Source: a virus. From it: 64,000 nt of DNA. The notes below the pieces were generated by a model. The model searched no databases. It had not been told where the DNA came from and worked only from the letters and a program-made list of their open reading frames with translations. Positions within the stretch are counted from its first letter, which is position 1; each line of letters starts with the position of its first letter. The stretch lies in the IMG/VR virus record IMGVR_UViG_3300047564_002353, positions 38,000 through 101,999 of that record, one strand, 5' to 3'. The position numbers and the translations under genes are program-made. This document shows positions 588 through 38,012 of this stretch, in pieces.

Positions 588-3500
588 TTATTGTAACAGT
601 AGTGGTGCTGTAGGTACTACAATAGTACGATCATATAATGTAACACGTAAATCACTGATATATCCATTAAAATAACTAGCGCCGCCGCCTCGAGCAGCTC
701 CTAGATAAATTATATCAGTTTGATTAAAATCTGTGCTTACAGTACCAGTCGCACTTACAGTACCATCGATATAGATATTAAATTGGTTAGCACCTATTCC
801 CGATCTTACCACAGCGATATGTGTCCAAACTCCGGTTGATATTGTAGTAGTTGTAGTTATGGCTGTGCTAACATTTGTAAATACAACTTGATTTGTAGCA
901 CTTAAAGACAGTGCCCACCCTGTTGGAGTACTAGCACCTTTGTTAATAAGATTACCTGAATTTCCAGCGATGATATAAATCCACATGTCTATTGTAAAAT
1001 TTTTAAGACTAAATGTATGGTATGGTAAATGTGCAATTTTTAATCTATTATTAACAGTACCGTCAAAGAATAAACTTGTTTTGCCCCATTTACTTAATTG
1101 AGAACTCACTCTTGCATTTGTAACATCGGAGTAAATTGTAGATTTAGTAGTAAAATCTTTCATAGCTGCGCTGTCAAAATTTGTTAACATTACACATTCT
1201 TCAAAAGTAGTGTTTATGTTATTTGTATTTGGGTAGGAACTAATAGAATTAGAACCATGAGTATTTAAAGGTGCAATAGGAGGAGTAAACACAACATCTC
1301 CAACAGCTGATCCTCCTGTGTAAACTCCAACACCCTTGACTATTCTTAAATCAAAAATGTATCCTCGAAAATGATTAGTGCCGTCTGAACCAATTCTAGG
1401 ACTTCCAGTTCCGTTAGCCGAATTCGTTCCTGTGGCGTTGATATTTTGTAATACACCATTTATGTATACTCTACAGGTTCCGCTTATTCTTGTCCATACC
1501 ACGTGTGCCCAAGCATTATATGGTACGAATAAAGCTGCTACATCTGTTGCGGCGTGCGTATATATTTGCCAAGCTAATCTATTGCTGCTTCTTAAAAAAA
1601 GTTGGTACGAATTTGTAGCACTTGAGGTCCAGAAATTAAAAATCATACGACTCACTGCTGCCGTGTTTGTAGGATAAATCCAAGATTCTATAGTAAAGTC
1701 GCCTGTGCCTAAAGAAAGAGAGCTTTGCTCATTTACTGTTGTTAATAAATCATTACTTCCATCAAAATAACAACTAGTGCCGTTTGTCAGTTCATCGTAT
1801 TGAGTAGATGGTGCAAATGGCGTAAATGGTTGTGTTGCAACTGTTCCGCTGGCAGTTAATATAAATGAATTGTTACTATTGTCGACAAATCTATTCGATT
1901 GACAAGTTAATAGAGTTGTTTCTGATCCAGTTAATGCAGAAATATTTGTTCCTGCACTTTGAATTCTAGATAACGGCGATGTTGGTGGAGTAAATGTACC
2001 GGTGTACACTGCGGTGCCGTTAACCACACGAAAATTGGAAATGTTTCCAAGCATAAATGCAGTAGATCCTGTAAGTGACCCAATATATGAAATTTGAGCA
2101 GTAGGACTAGCTATTGTTGCAGCAGTAAAACTAATTACAGATGATCCATTCAAATACAAGTTGCAGGCACTTCCATTTTTTACGAAGGCAATATGATACC
2201 ATCCACTTGTAGTTATGATACCAGTAGATGATGCAATAGTTGCCTCACTTGTGCCAGTAATTGAATAAAATATCTGAAGTGCGCCAGTAGTCAATGCTGC
2301 TATAGACAATCCTCTAATACCACTTCCACTACTATTTGCATCCCTGGCAAAAAAAACTCTATTGGATGCCAATGAATCTACCTTCGCCCACATTTCAATA
2401 GTAAAGCTATTAGCAGCAGTCCACAGTGCATTAGCAGCAGCAATACTTAAATAATCCCCAGTGCCATCAAAATAATTACTCCACCCTACGTGACTAAATG
2501 GAGTGAATGTGCTTGTAGCTACATCTCCAGAAAAACTAATAATTCTATGTGAATTTACTTTATCAAACGCAACTTTATTATTATAATCTCTGCGTCCTTT
2601 TAATGTTAATATACTTGTGCTTGAAGCTGAAAATGTTGTATTAACATTAGTTGTTACGGAGTACGGAGTAGAAGATCCATACGGCAATAAATCAGCGATA
2701 GGCGGTGTAAAATCGCCTGTGTAAACTGCAACACCTTTTACAATACGGAAATTACTAATAAACCCACTCCAGGGATCGGTAGTGTCACCTTGTACACCTA
2801 TTCTAAATTCTTTAAGGAAGCCGCTGAACCAAATATTAGTATCAGCAAATGTTCTTGCACCTCCAGAATCAGACTTTCCATTAATATAAAAGTATATAGA
2901 ATTACCACTTCTTACCACAGCAAGATGTACCCAGGTATTGTATGGAACAGAGTCAGTAGAAGTTAACGTAGCAGTGCCGCCATCTGATTCTTTTCTCAAT
3001 ACAAATTCTATTTTACTTGCTGTAGTTATACGCCAAATCCATGCTCCGCCGCCTGACCATGTACTTGCTATACCCCGTATAGCACTAAATGCAACATTAG
3101 AATAAACCCAAGCTTCAAAAGTAAAATCACTACTTCCCATTAAGAAAGCATCACTGAACCCTGTGGCTGTTGTAGGAATTGAAACATATTGTGATGTGCT
3201 ATTTGCAAAATATCCGCTGCCTGAAGTTATATCTGTGTTTGCAAATGGGCTAAACGTCACAGTTTCTGCCTCACCGCTTTTTGTTAAATTCAATTTATAT
3301 GAACTGTTATCAACAATGTTACCATTTTGACAAGTTAATAGACTTGTTTCGGTACCTTGAGGAGGATTAACGCCTCCACTAGTTATTCCTAATGGAGCAG
3401 TAGGTGGTGTGAAAGTAGTTGTATAAACTGCCCTTCCTTTGACTACTCTAAGATTACTGATATATCCGTTCAAATCATTTGCGTTGAGGTATCCGCAACC

Positions 3501-4919
3501 AATTTTTGGTCCTCCGATTACATAATCATTTGCATCAGTATATGTTGACCCGGTTTGTGTACCATCGAGATACATTTTAGTAGATCCTGAACTTTTCACC
3601 ACTGCAATATGATACCACCGACTTGTGCTTAAAGTTGCTCCGGCTATTCTATTATTGCCTACAAAATAAGTTAGTACTCCAGCATTTAGATAAATTACCG
3701 GAGATATAGTAGTGGAACCGGTTCTACCATCATACAATGTTCCTGACGTACCTGAAAGCAAATACAACCATCCTTCAATGGTAAAATCTCCAGTGCCCAT
3801 GGTAAACACAGAGTTACTAGGTGCGTCTATAAAATCATCAGTTCCATCAAAATAAACACTATATCCAGTGTTAAAAGGACTAAATGAAACTGCTTTTGGA
3901 TTCTCAAACGGAGTTTGTTTAACTATTTGAAAAGCATTGTTTGATTCATCGGCTAAAAAAGGGTTAGTACCAGTATCACCAGAAATTAGAAGCACAGTAT
4001 CCTTAAAAAAGATATCTCCTAATATTACAGCCCAAGTTATAGATATTGTTGAACTTCGATTTGAAGTTTCAGCAGTAGCAGTAAGATTAGCCGGTACCGT
4101 TTCTGTTTGAGTAACAGTTCCTGATATTACACCTGTTTCAGCGTTTAGGCTAAATCCACTAGGTAAAGCACTAGCAGTGTAATCTATATCATAGCCTGTT
4201 AATGCTGATGCGTTTAAATTTACAGATGCAGTATTAGCATTTATATTAATAGTGCTACCATTAGTTGGGTATGACCAAATAACTACATCTGTATTCACAG
4301 TAACATTAAATTCTCTTGTGGATGTTTGTAATTCTGCGTCCGTTGCACGAACAGTAAAGGTATACGTATCGTTAGTAGTTGTTGCTTGTGCTGTTCCTGT
4401 TAGTGTTCCATCATTATTAAGAGTCGATCCTGGAGGAATTAATCCACTTACAACATCATATGTAATAGCAGAGTCTGATGCAGCAGACACTGAGGACGAT
4501 ATCGCAGTTGTTTCATAAAAATTACCTATATTACCTGTTGCTGTTACAAAATTAGGAGAACCAGAATACTGTATTCCTGGAACTAAGACTGCTGCTCCGC
4601 CTGATGGATTAATTAATAATACACTATAAGTTCCTGAACTGTTTGCAGGAGAAGTAAATGAAATACGTTTGTCACTTAGAACACTTACAGGACTAATTGA
4701 TACTCCGCCTATTGAAAGAGTTAGTCCGGATTCAAAACCATTACCATTTATATAAACAGTTTCTCCTCCGGCTGGTATTAAAGCCAATGCATTAGAACTG
4801 TCTACTTCAAATCCGCTTATATAAGGTGCGGGTAAAACTTTTTGTAAATGTTTTTCAACAGAATTAATTCTGCCTTCGTTATCACGAGAACGAGTTCCAC
4901 GTCTACTAGAATTAGACAT
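588..4919 (-). CDS. Giant tail adhesin with Ig-like and five LamG-like domains
   Basis: 1443 aa. Order: a short polar N-terminus, an IPT/TIG-like Ig domain (about 31-120), two putative-Ig (He_PIG-like) domains with 'SGLIPPGSTLNNDGTLTGT' and 'LPSGFSLNAETGVISGT' motifs (about 125-300), then five concanavalin/LamG-like repeats. Each repeat starts like YFDGT.DY, contains FTIE.W and ends in ISNLRVVKG.AVYT..FTPP. Such lectin-like sandwiches usually bind glycans, so a host-surface adhesin is inferred. The ATG overlaps the stop of the upstream gene (TAATG), so the two are probably translationally coupled. Confidence 0.85.
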   Translation of the reverse strand: MSNSSRRGTRSRDNEGRINSVEKHLQKVLPAPYISGFEVDSSNALALIPAGGETVYINGNGFESGLTLSIGGVSISPVSVLSDKRISFTSPANSSGTYSVLLINPSGGAAVLVPGIQYSGSPNFVTATGNIGNFYETTAISSSVSAASDSAITYDVVSGLIPPGSTLNNDGTLTGTAQATTTNDTYTFTVRATDAELQTSTREFNVTVNTDVVIWSYPTNGSTININANTASVNLNASALTGYDIDYTASALPSGFSLNAETGVISGTVTQTETVPANLTATAETSNRSSTISITWAVILGDIFFKDTVLLISGDTGTNPFLADESNNAFQIVKQTPFENPKAVSFSPFNTGYSVYFDGTDDFIDAPSNSVFTMGTGDFTIEGWLYLLSGTSGTLYDGRTGSTTISPVIYLNAGVLTYFVGNNRIAGATLSTSRWYHIAVVKSSGSTKMYLDGTQTGSTYTDANDYVIGGPKIGCGYLNANDLNGYISNLRVVKGRAVYTTTFTPPTAPLGITSGGVNPPQGTETSLLTCQNGNIVDNSSYKLNLTKSGEAETVTFSPFANTDITSGSGYFANSTSQYVSIPTTATGFSDAFLMGSSDFTFEAWVYSNVAFSAIRGIASTWSGGGAWIWRITTASKIEFVLRKESDGGTATLTSTDSVPYNTWVHLAVVRSGNSIYFYINGKSDSGGARTFADTNIWFSGFLKEFRIGVQGDTTDPWSGFISNFRIVKGVAVYTGDFTPPIADLLPYGSSTPYSVTTNVNTTFSASSTSILTLKGRRDYNNKVAFDKVNSHRIISFSGDVATSTFTPFSHVGWSNYFDGTGDYLSIAAANALWTAANSFTIEMWAKVDSLASNRVFFARDANSSGSGIRGLSIAALTTGALQIFYSITGTSEATIASSTGIITTSGWYHIAFVKNGSACNLYLNGSSVISFTAATIASPTAQISYIGSLTGSTAFMLGNISNFRVVNGTAVYTGTFTPPTSPLSRIQSAGTNISALTGSETTLLTCQSNRFVDNSNNSFILTASGTVATQPFTPFAPSTQYDELTNGTSCYFDGSNDLLTTVNEQSSLSLGTGDFTIESWIYPTNTAAVSRMIFNFWTSSATNSYQLFLRSSNRLAWQIYTHAATDVAALFVPYNAWAHVVWTRISGTCRVYINGVLQNINATGTNSANGTGSPRIGSDGTNHFRGYIFDLRIVKGVGVYTGGSAVGDVVFTPPIAPLNTHGSNSISSYPNTNNINTTFEECVMLTNFDSAAMKDFTTKSTIYSDVTNARVSSQLSKWGKTSLFFDGTVNNRLKIAHLPYHTFSLKNFTIDMWIYIIAGNSGNLINKGASTPTGWALSLSATNQVVFTNVSTAITTTTTISTGVWTHIAVVRSGIGANQFNIYIDGTVSATGTVSTDFNQTDIIYLGAARGGGASYFNGYISDLRVTLYDRTIVVPTAPLLLQ

Positions 4920-32022: not shown

Positions 32023-32051
32023 TTGACAAAATACACTGAAGATAGTATTGT
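32023..32051 (+). promoter_or_regulatory. Sigma70-type promoter of the suppressor tRNA
   Basis: TTGACA, 17-bp spacer, TATTGT, ending 9 nt before the tRNA. Confidence 0.65.
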
Positions 32052-32060
32052 AATGAATAA

Positions 32061-32136
32061 GCACTGATAGCTCAATGGTTAGAGCTAGAGTCTCTAAAGC
32101 TTTAGGTTATGGGTTCGAGTCCCATTCAGTGCACCA
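32061..32136 (+). tRNA. tRNA-Sup(CTA), amber suppressor
   Basis: Complete 76-nt cloverleaf including encoded CCA: acceptor GCACTGA/TCAGTGC, D stem GCTC/GAGC, anticodon stem AGAGT/GCTTT (two G-U pairs), loop CTCTAAA, T stem ATGGG/CCCAT with TTCGAGT loop. With U33 conserved, positions 34-36 read CTA, which decodes UAG. Amino-acid identity cannot be read from the sequence (discriminator A73). Confidence 0.85.
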
Positions 32137-32153
32137 ACTATATAGGAATCAAT

Positions 32154-32408
32154 ATGCCTTATAATTTTGAACTAGCAGCCAGCGCAGAAGTAACTGCGGA
32201 TGTGGTTAAAGAAATGGTTTGTAATCTTGTACAGGAACAAACTGGAAAACATATTGTAGATGTAAAAGTATCCATCATAGAAGGACAGTTCCAAGGCTTT
32301 AAATTAATTTTTGAATCTGAACAAGCTGAATTGGTTTCTGATACAAAACCCATTGACAAAAAACCTAAAGTAATTGATAAAAAATGGAAACCCTTTATCT
32401 GGGAATAA
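32154..32408 (+). CDS. Conserved small phage protein
   Basis: 84 aa from MPYNFELAASAEVTADVVKE; 'VCNLVQEQTGKHIVDVKVSI...FKLIFE' small alpha/beta fold and a Lys-rich tail. First ORF after the suppressor tRNA, likely in the same transcript. Confidence 0.65.
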   Translation: MPYNFELAASAEVTADVVKEMVCNLVQEQTGKHIVDVKVSIIEGQFQGFKLIFESEQAELVSDTKPIDKKPKVIDKKWKPFIWE

Positions 32409-32435
32409 TAAATAACTTTTTAAGGAGAAATAAAA

Positions 32436-33005
32436 ATGTCGTAGATTGAATTTGCTTGTACCGACTTAGTTTTCCACTTCAATAAGAAGCACTTGGAAGA
32501 CTCGACCATTCCTATGTGGGTCGTTAAATTTCATGGGGAAACTTACTATGTAGAGCACGTTGATTGTGAAGTAGCGTGGAGCACTAAAGAAACGCCGGAC
32601 AACAGTCATACCAAAGGCAGTATCAAAGTCAAAAATGTATTACTGACTATAGACGACGATAACTGTGCCCGTATTACAACTCTTACCCTAATCGATAAAA
32701 TAAGACTGCGTAACCAAAAGTTAGGCATTACTCGTATTATTTTTCGTTACGGCGATAAGATGCATAACGCTCTACAAAAAAACGAATATAAACACAGTCC
32801 ATTTAAGAACGTCAGCGGCGGTTGTGGTACCAGCTGGGTAGTCTGTGATTTACTCAAAAAAACAGAGTTCACTTTGGCTAGCCTAAAATACTCAACGGAC
32901 TTTAGAGTACTCAAACCAAATGAAGCATACTACAAGGCATACGATGCTCCTGGTACTTATATTGACGAAGATGATTATGAAGAATTTGACACAGAAGAGG
33001 AGTGA
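32436..33005 (+). CDS. Amber-interrupted family A protein (TAG at codon 3)
   Basis: A strong AAGGAG lies 8 nt before ATG TCG TAG ATT GAA. The frame after TAG stays open for 186 codons: 'IEFACTDLVFHFNKKHLED...PMWVVKFHGETYYVEHVDCEVAWSTKETPDNSHTKG'. The stretch right after the amber looks like genuine protein, and the only start after the TAG that would keep most of the frame is a TTG at 32493 without a good ribosome site. Full translation would need readthrough by the suppressor tRNA encoded 300 nt upstream. Ends near 'EFTLASLKYS', the family A motif. Confidence 0.75.
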
Positions 33006-33014
33006 TAGTATAAT
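32986..33014 (+). promoter_or_regulatory. Sigma70 promoter immediately before a start codon
   Basis: TTGACA, 17-bp spacer, TATAAT, lying in the end of the amber gene. The expected +1 coincides with the ATG at 33021. Confidence 0.65.
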
Positions 33015-37967: not shown

Positions 37968-38012
37968 CCAAAATATCCCTGATTCGCAAAAATACAACAC
38001 TATCTTTTTTGG

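Follow-up and report, generated by a model that had tools for sequence, protein, structure and literature searches.

Start-proximal stop codons are known to serve as sensors, the early in-frame UGA of prfB, the gene of release factor 2 (RF2), being a translational sensor of this kind. Amber suppressor tRNAs are known from phages that use genetic code 15 (crAss-like and Lak phages), in which a phage-encoded tRNA makes UAG a sense codon. Elsewhere, phage suppressor tRNAs have been described without a named target: the authors of the XacN1 study reported in 2018 that in silico readthrough revealed none (PMC5852040), and no specific one is named in the papers on Agrobacterium phage Atu_ph07 (PMC6102473), for which the sole suppressor reported is an opal one (UCA), and on RsoM2USA (PMC8504454), which carries a CUA tRNA. 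Finally, an engineered feed-forward leak dampener is described as making expression dependent on a suppressor tRNA (PMC7969014).

The locus studied here lies in a window of 64,000 nucleotides (positions 38,000 to 101,999) from the 102-kb IMG/VR record IMGVR_UViG_3300047564_002353, an incomplete genome. It had been predicted to carry a tRNA with anticodon CTA followed, some 300 nt downstream, by a gene with a Shine-Dalgarno sequence, the opening codons ATG TCG TAG and 186 further open codons, and all of these features are present on the plus strand. ARAGORN calls the tRNA at 32061–32136 with anticodon CTA, and it matches the Rfam tRNA model (RF00005) with 70.3 bits and an E-value of 2.9e-15; its 3′ CCA is encoded, the discriminator base is A73, the variable loop is short, and a DNA search found it as a single copy in the 102-kb record. 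A candidate sigma70-like promoter (TTGACA-17-TATTGT, 32023–32051), recognised purely by 10 of 12 matches to the consensus, ends 9 nt upstream of the tRNA, while a small ORF of 84 aa without known family (32154–32408) occupies the space between tRNA and gene. The Shine-Dalgarno sequence AAGGAG (32422–32427) stands 8 nt before the ATG (32436–32438), which is 299 nt from the tRNA, and the amber triplet (32442–32444) forms codon 3 of the opening 32436–32444, with A as the next base. If the TAG is read, the gene (32436–33005, ending in TGA at 33003–33005) encodes 189 aa. Because no terminator-like site was found between the tRNA and the gene, their co-transcription appears possible. A second sigma70-like promoter, predicted from a perfect 12/12 consensus match (TTGACA-17-TATAAT, 32986–33014), overlaps the 3′ end of the gene and likely drives the next genes.

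In this window TAG also acts as an ordinary stop, as the original prediction had noted: of the 88 non-overlapping ORFs that are 80 aa or longer, 7 end in it, some of these probably being spurious. Its further statement that the genome is not recoded agrees with our comparison of alternative readings, in which treating TAG as sense added no more coding length than treating TGA or TAA as sense; nor did any other locus show a general gain in coding length over these two readings.

The protein obtained by reading through the TAG consists of a domain that we call FHFNK (residues ~4–82) and a C-terminal alpha/beta domain (~83–170). We used it to search IMG/VR, which gave 233 relatives, and in all 80 of those fetched a TAG stood directly 5′ of the conserved stretch IE[YF]AC...FHFNK. 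Wider searches extended the family to 154 distinct sequences, of which 136 have an in-frame TAG just past the start and none a TGA or TAA in that place. The original prediction had asked whether codon 3 is sense in relatives; the answer is the opposite and a stronger one, in that nearly all of them have a stop there. The start codon of the 136 is ATG in 133, a Shine-Dalgarno sequence lies 5–10 nt upstream of it in 120 (many of the 16 others being AT-rich loci, e.g., L261), and the base after the TAG (+4) is A in 131. Spacing between start and TAG differs by whole codons, usually amounting to one to three. In one locus (L374) the beginning of the FHFNK gene contains two in-frame stops (MK*EEH*VQN). 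No tblastn-confirmed relative was found in bacterial or archaeal genomes.

To gauge how often such an arrangement occurs, we scanned the window and the loci collected by then for a Shine-Dalgarno sequence, an ATG, up to 12 codons, a stop and at least 90 open codons. Within the FHFNK family this architecture was found with TAG in 83 cases and with TGA or TAA in none, as opposed to 10 TAG, 8 TGA and 5 TAA among all other genes, and the gene at 32436 was the only TAG-gated one in the window (we call a gene gated when an in-frame stop closely follows its start). The gate is thus far above chance and, near the window, specific to TAG and to the FHFNK family. We then examined 88 distinct 27-nt segments between the TAG and FHFNK, and compared near-identical pairs. 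Between them 581 changes were synonymous and 272 nonsynonymous, counted over overlapping pairs and hence not independent events, where a synonymous fraction of 0.20 would be expected. Because substitutions there are mostly synonymous, the segment after the TAG is, by its pattern of divergence, translated. As in programmed readthrough, the in-frame stop is conserved, and so is the coding sequence that continues beyond it without a change of frame. That homologues might instead begin at the TTG at 32493 does not hold, as the residues between the TAG and this TTG are conserved in relatives.

The 18 FHFNK genes that lack the TAG mostly have a PTH2-like gene nearby, which itself carries an in-frame stop 0–6 codons past its start. 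An ungated FHFNK gene beside a TAG-gated PTH2 gene was found in L191, L204, L209, L212, L219, L227 (and its near-copy L336), L260, L265, L268, L284, L319 and L338, and direct reading gave the same arrangement in L162 and in Sinorhizobium phage Phosso (L083); in L274 the contig ends within the PTH2 gene. Both genes are gated in L261, L266, L267, L273, L275–L277, L279, L280, L282 and L372. The gated genes are thus of several types, namely FHFNK proteins (as in the window), PTH2-fold proteins, PTH2 fused to another domain, and PTH2 together with FHFNK. No PTH2 gene was found in the window's own 102-kb record, and where a canonical PTH2 match could be inspected in large relatives (L396–L398), it is ungated. 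Comparison of these loci indicates that the gate is mobile between neighbouring genes. In Atu_ph07 (L161) the neighbouring PTH2 gene has TGA instead of TAG: it begins ATG ATT GGC GAA CAC TTT TGA ATT, and we confirmed that the suppressor tRNA of this phage has a TCA anticodon. In this one opal case the type of stop appears to follow the suppressor anticodon, as a gate opened by the cognate tRNA predicts.

Gated PTH2 genes, usually misannotated, also occur in cultured phages of mycobacteria, enterobacteria, Acinetobacter, Xanthomonas, Stenotrophomonas, Tenacibaculum and Sinorhizobium, although these isolates are not phylogenetically independent. They were found in Mycobacterium phages ET08 (ATG TAG GTG, with an annotated CTA suppressor ~250 nt downstream) and Phabba (GTG TAG GTG), Erwinia phage pEa_SNUABM_19, Cronobacter phage GAP32, Acinetobacter phage ME3, Salmonella phage Arash, Tenacibaculum phage pT24 and Phosso. 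In Xanthomonas phage XacN1 (L404:2467-3306) and Stenotrophomonas phage RAS14 (L409:2440-3303) the gated PTH2 is fused to an N-terminal HD-like domain, which we recognised by eye, Pfam finding PTH2 only. Rhizobium phage RHph_I1_18 has a gated one-domain FHFNK gene directly before an annotated tRNA-Pyl(cta). All eleven of these phages carry a tRNA-CTA. Two such tRNAs are annotated otherwise and have a CTA anticodon by ARAGORN, one as Phe in Arash (L408:4310-4384) and one as Arg(tct) in Phabba (L391:4468-4538). Because an in-frame stop comes so soon after the true start, several annotated genes begin inside the domain, and among PTH2-type genes the start is placed too far downstream in XacN1 ORF364 (L404:2467-3306), GAP32_397 (L406:4106), Arash gp84 (L408:3172), Phosso XYS97424.1 (L083:2043) and Atu_ph07 (L084:2049), while the gated genes of pEa_SNUABM_19 and RHph_I1_18 have no annotation under the match.

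These downstream starts, given for GAP32_397, Arash gp84 and XacN1 ORF364, suit a reading in which AUG-x-UAG is a short upstream ORF, comparable to the lambda bar minigenes, that attenuates or couples translation, the protein itself starting further downstream at a non-standard or weak start. Two-codon ORFs cause peptidyl-tRNA drop-off, which would be fitting in front of a PTH2 gene. We nevertheless consider this reading quite improbable, given that the spacing changes by whole codons, leaving TAG and downstream ORF in a common frame in every case, that the Shine-Dalgarno sequence suits the upstream ATG only, and that selection acts on the codons immediately after the TAG. Furthermore, the codon after the TAG is variable (ATT, ATC, AAT, ACT, AAA or GTT) and therefore not a start, and the type of stop tracks the suppressor anticodon.

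The linkage between gate and tRNA is equally regular. We found 124 tRNA-CTA genes near FHFNK genes, every one on the same strand as the gene, with 54 of them less than 700 nt upstream and 20 less than 1 kb downstream. A CTA tRNA or tRNA-like match was present in 121 of the 136 gated FHFNK loci; in the other 15, many of them near contig ends, no tRNA-CTA was found in the stretch examined. Several loci that are negative by ARAGORN contain a tRNA-like CTA sequence by pattern search. Among ungated relatives, genome-wide ARAGORN searches found no CTA or UCA tRNA in RaK2, Hallingskeid, S-CBWM1 and phiM19 (the last with a canonical PTH2 that has no gate, and with a 'stop' tRNA of the TTA type), and a pattern search found no CTA tRNA in Baka. 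Since the text pattern is imperfect and missed the tRNA of ME3, all of these genomes except Baka were rechecked by ARAGORN. Gated genes, as we propose to define them, have an in-frame stop 0–8 codons after the start and a suppressor of matching anticodon in the same genome, and both features were found.

Several loci depart from this pattern or extend it. L307 (5600-6030) is an exception, with an FHFNK gene and a tRNA-CTA and no gate seen; the interval between the two contains a short ORF (ATG...TAG) and a hairpin resembling a terminator. LR756502 has a gated PTH2 gene and no confirmed tRNA-CTA, and RsoM2USA gave no PTH2 or FHFNK match. In L389 (LR756501, a 735-kb phage) the PTH2 gene has the TAG gate and a second TAG inside the domain, together with two tandem tRNA-CTA genes, and this phage is probably generally recoded. 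The PTH2 homologue of Prevotella phage Lak-B5 (L394, ~3880-4010) is preceded by an in-frame ATG AAT ATC TAA, a possible TAA gate, and a tRNA with a TTA (ochre-reading) anticodon lies nearby (3341-3413).

The precedent of prfB, which responds to RF2, raises the alternative that what the gate senses is not the phage tRNA but release-factor activity or the depletion of release factor 1 (RF1). Such a sensor would have no need of a linked cognate suppressor, yet the tRNA is on the same strand in 124/124 cases, and no gate is present in those PTH2 relatives that, when checked, had neither a CTA nor a UCA tRNA. We therefore regard it as very improbable in this form, while competition with RF1 is also part of the tRNA-operated gate. 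ARAGORN labels the window tRNA 'Pyl', a label that stems solely from its CTA anticodon, and one could accordingly suppose that the inserted residue itself matters, i.e., that the protein needs a special amino acid as with pyrrolysine. With the TAG placed anywhere from 1 to 9 codons after the ATG between variable flanks, FHFNK genes that do without it (L191, L319 and L307), a tRNA of ordinary shape that matches RF00005, and no match to the PylS_Cterm model in the 102-kb record (an incomplete genome), this is highly improbable. Sequencing error, a pseudogene or genome-wide TAG reassignment has next to no likelihood, even though code 15 phages are reported to encode suppressor tRNAs (PMC9523058), given 136 distinct sequences and several cultured phages with the gate, purifying selection after the TAG and no extra coding length gained from a sense TAG.

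The original prediction had interpreted the locus as a dedicated switch opened by the suppressor tRNA, and the comparative evidence argues strongly in its favour: a conserved start-proximal stop that is only ever TAG in the FHFNK family, same-strand linkage to tRNA-CTA, codon-level selection indicating that the sequence past the TAG is coding, movement of the gate between adjacent genes, and a stop that matches the suppressor anticodon in the one opal case (TGA and UCA in Atu_ph07). We thus think it very probable that the start-proximal stop acts as a gate, which a dedicated suppressor tRNA of matching anticodon opens. In the proposed mechanism, the gated mRNA would begin AUG-(0 to 8 codons)-UAG, and before the phage tRNA exists RF1 would stop translation after a few residues, giving no protein. 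Once the tRNA-CUA, the product of a same-strand neighbour of the gated gene, has been transcribed, matured and charged and can compete with RF1, it would insert an amino acid at the UAG, whereupon the gated gene would be translated. As the rest of the genome uses the standard code, the suppressor tRNA would largely be a dedicated trans-activator, and the whole would work as an AND gate or coherent feed-forward gate. That readthrough takes place in cells, the residue placed at the UAG and the timing, including the earlier claim that the full protein is made only once the tRNA is charged, are what we infer.

The FHFNK protein of the window has an AlphaFold2 model with a pLDDT of 89, which matched no PDB fold at E<=0.001 and, in BFVD, a single entry at that threshold, an uncharacterised phage protein of 160 aa; no Pfam, PHROG or PDB sequence family matched the protein either. 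Homology of the gated protein to T4 Cef was considered and rejected, the sequence being visibly unrelated and no T4-like match appearing in the searches. The partner gene is PTH2 by Pfam (PF01981) and PDB sequence matches, and its AlphaFold2 model (pLDDT 90) matches archaeal PTH2 (3erj) in Foldseek with an E-value of 1e-7. The usual catalytic lysine of PTH2 sits in the GK segment, which is present in the PTH2 of the Phosso/L162 type and absent from the short phage type. Hydrolysis by the short type is doubtful for this reason, and it may bind rather than cut. Because PTH2 and FHFNK share the gate, we tentatively suggest, while holding it to be rather uncertain, that the gated products act jointly on peptidyl-tRNA or in the rescue of ribosomes. 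Their synthesis would scale with amber suppression and might compensate for the cost that readthrough of other amber stops incurs. A wider proposal, plausible though somewhat short of an even chance, is that of a widespread natural class of regulation, in which a private suppressor tRNA is the trans-acting switch of a module for peptidyl-tRNA metabolism, gate stop and anticodon co-evolve, the gate hops between genes, and suppression induces the proteins that limit its cost in a self-tuning loop.

The stop gate is a candidate answer to the purpose of phage suppressor tRNAs, hitherto without known targets. Such a target has probably been overlooked since gene callers miss an ORF of the few codons that precede the stop, and start the gene downstream. 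If true, it would constitute a natural tRNA-operated gene switch in cultured phages and would mend annotations that are truncated or absent in several groups of phages. We found no report of start-proximal gates or of a natural precedent in the open-access literature; while readthrough by phage suppressor tRNAs is known, a cognate tRNA dedicated to gating specific genes at their start seems to be a variant not described so far, and suppressor-tRNA-gated genes possibly form a class of their own.

Set beside the described systems, the locus shares with code 15 phages an amber suppressor tRNA encoded by the phage, whereas here the code is standard genome-wide and one or two dedicated genes contain a single start-proximal stop. 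It shares with prfB an early in-frame stop, but prfB uses +1 frameshifting, whereas here the ORF continues in frame and the cognate tRNA is linked. It lacks, in the incomplete 102-kb record, the PylS_Cterm match that the pyrrolysine system would lead one to expect. In XacN1 and Atu_ph07, whose papers name no target for their suppressors, gated genes were found here. The partner gene has the fold and sequence of PTH2 hydrolases, from which it differs in the short phage type without the GK segment and in expression gated by a stop codon. The leak dampener is described as following the same logic and is synthetic (PMC7969014), whereas the present system is natural, conserved and placed on phage genes.
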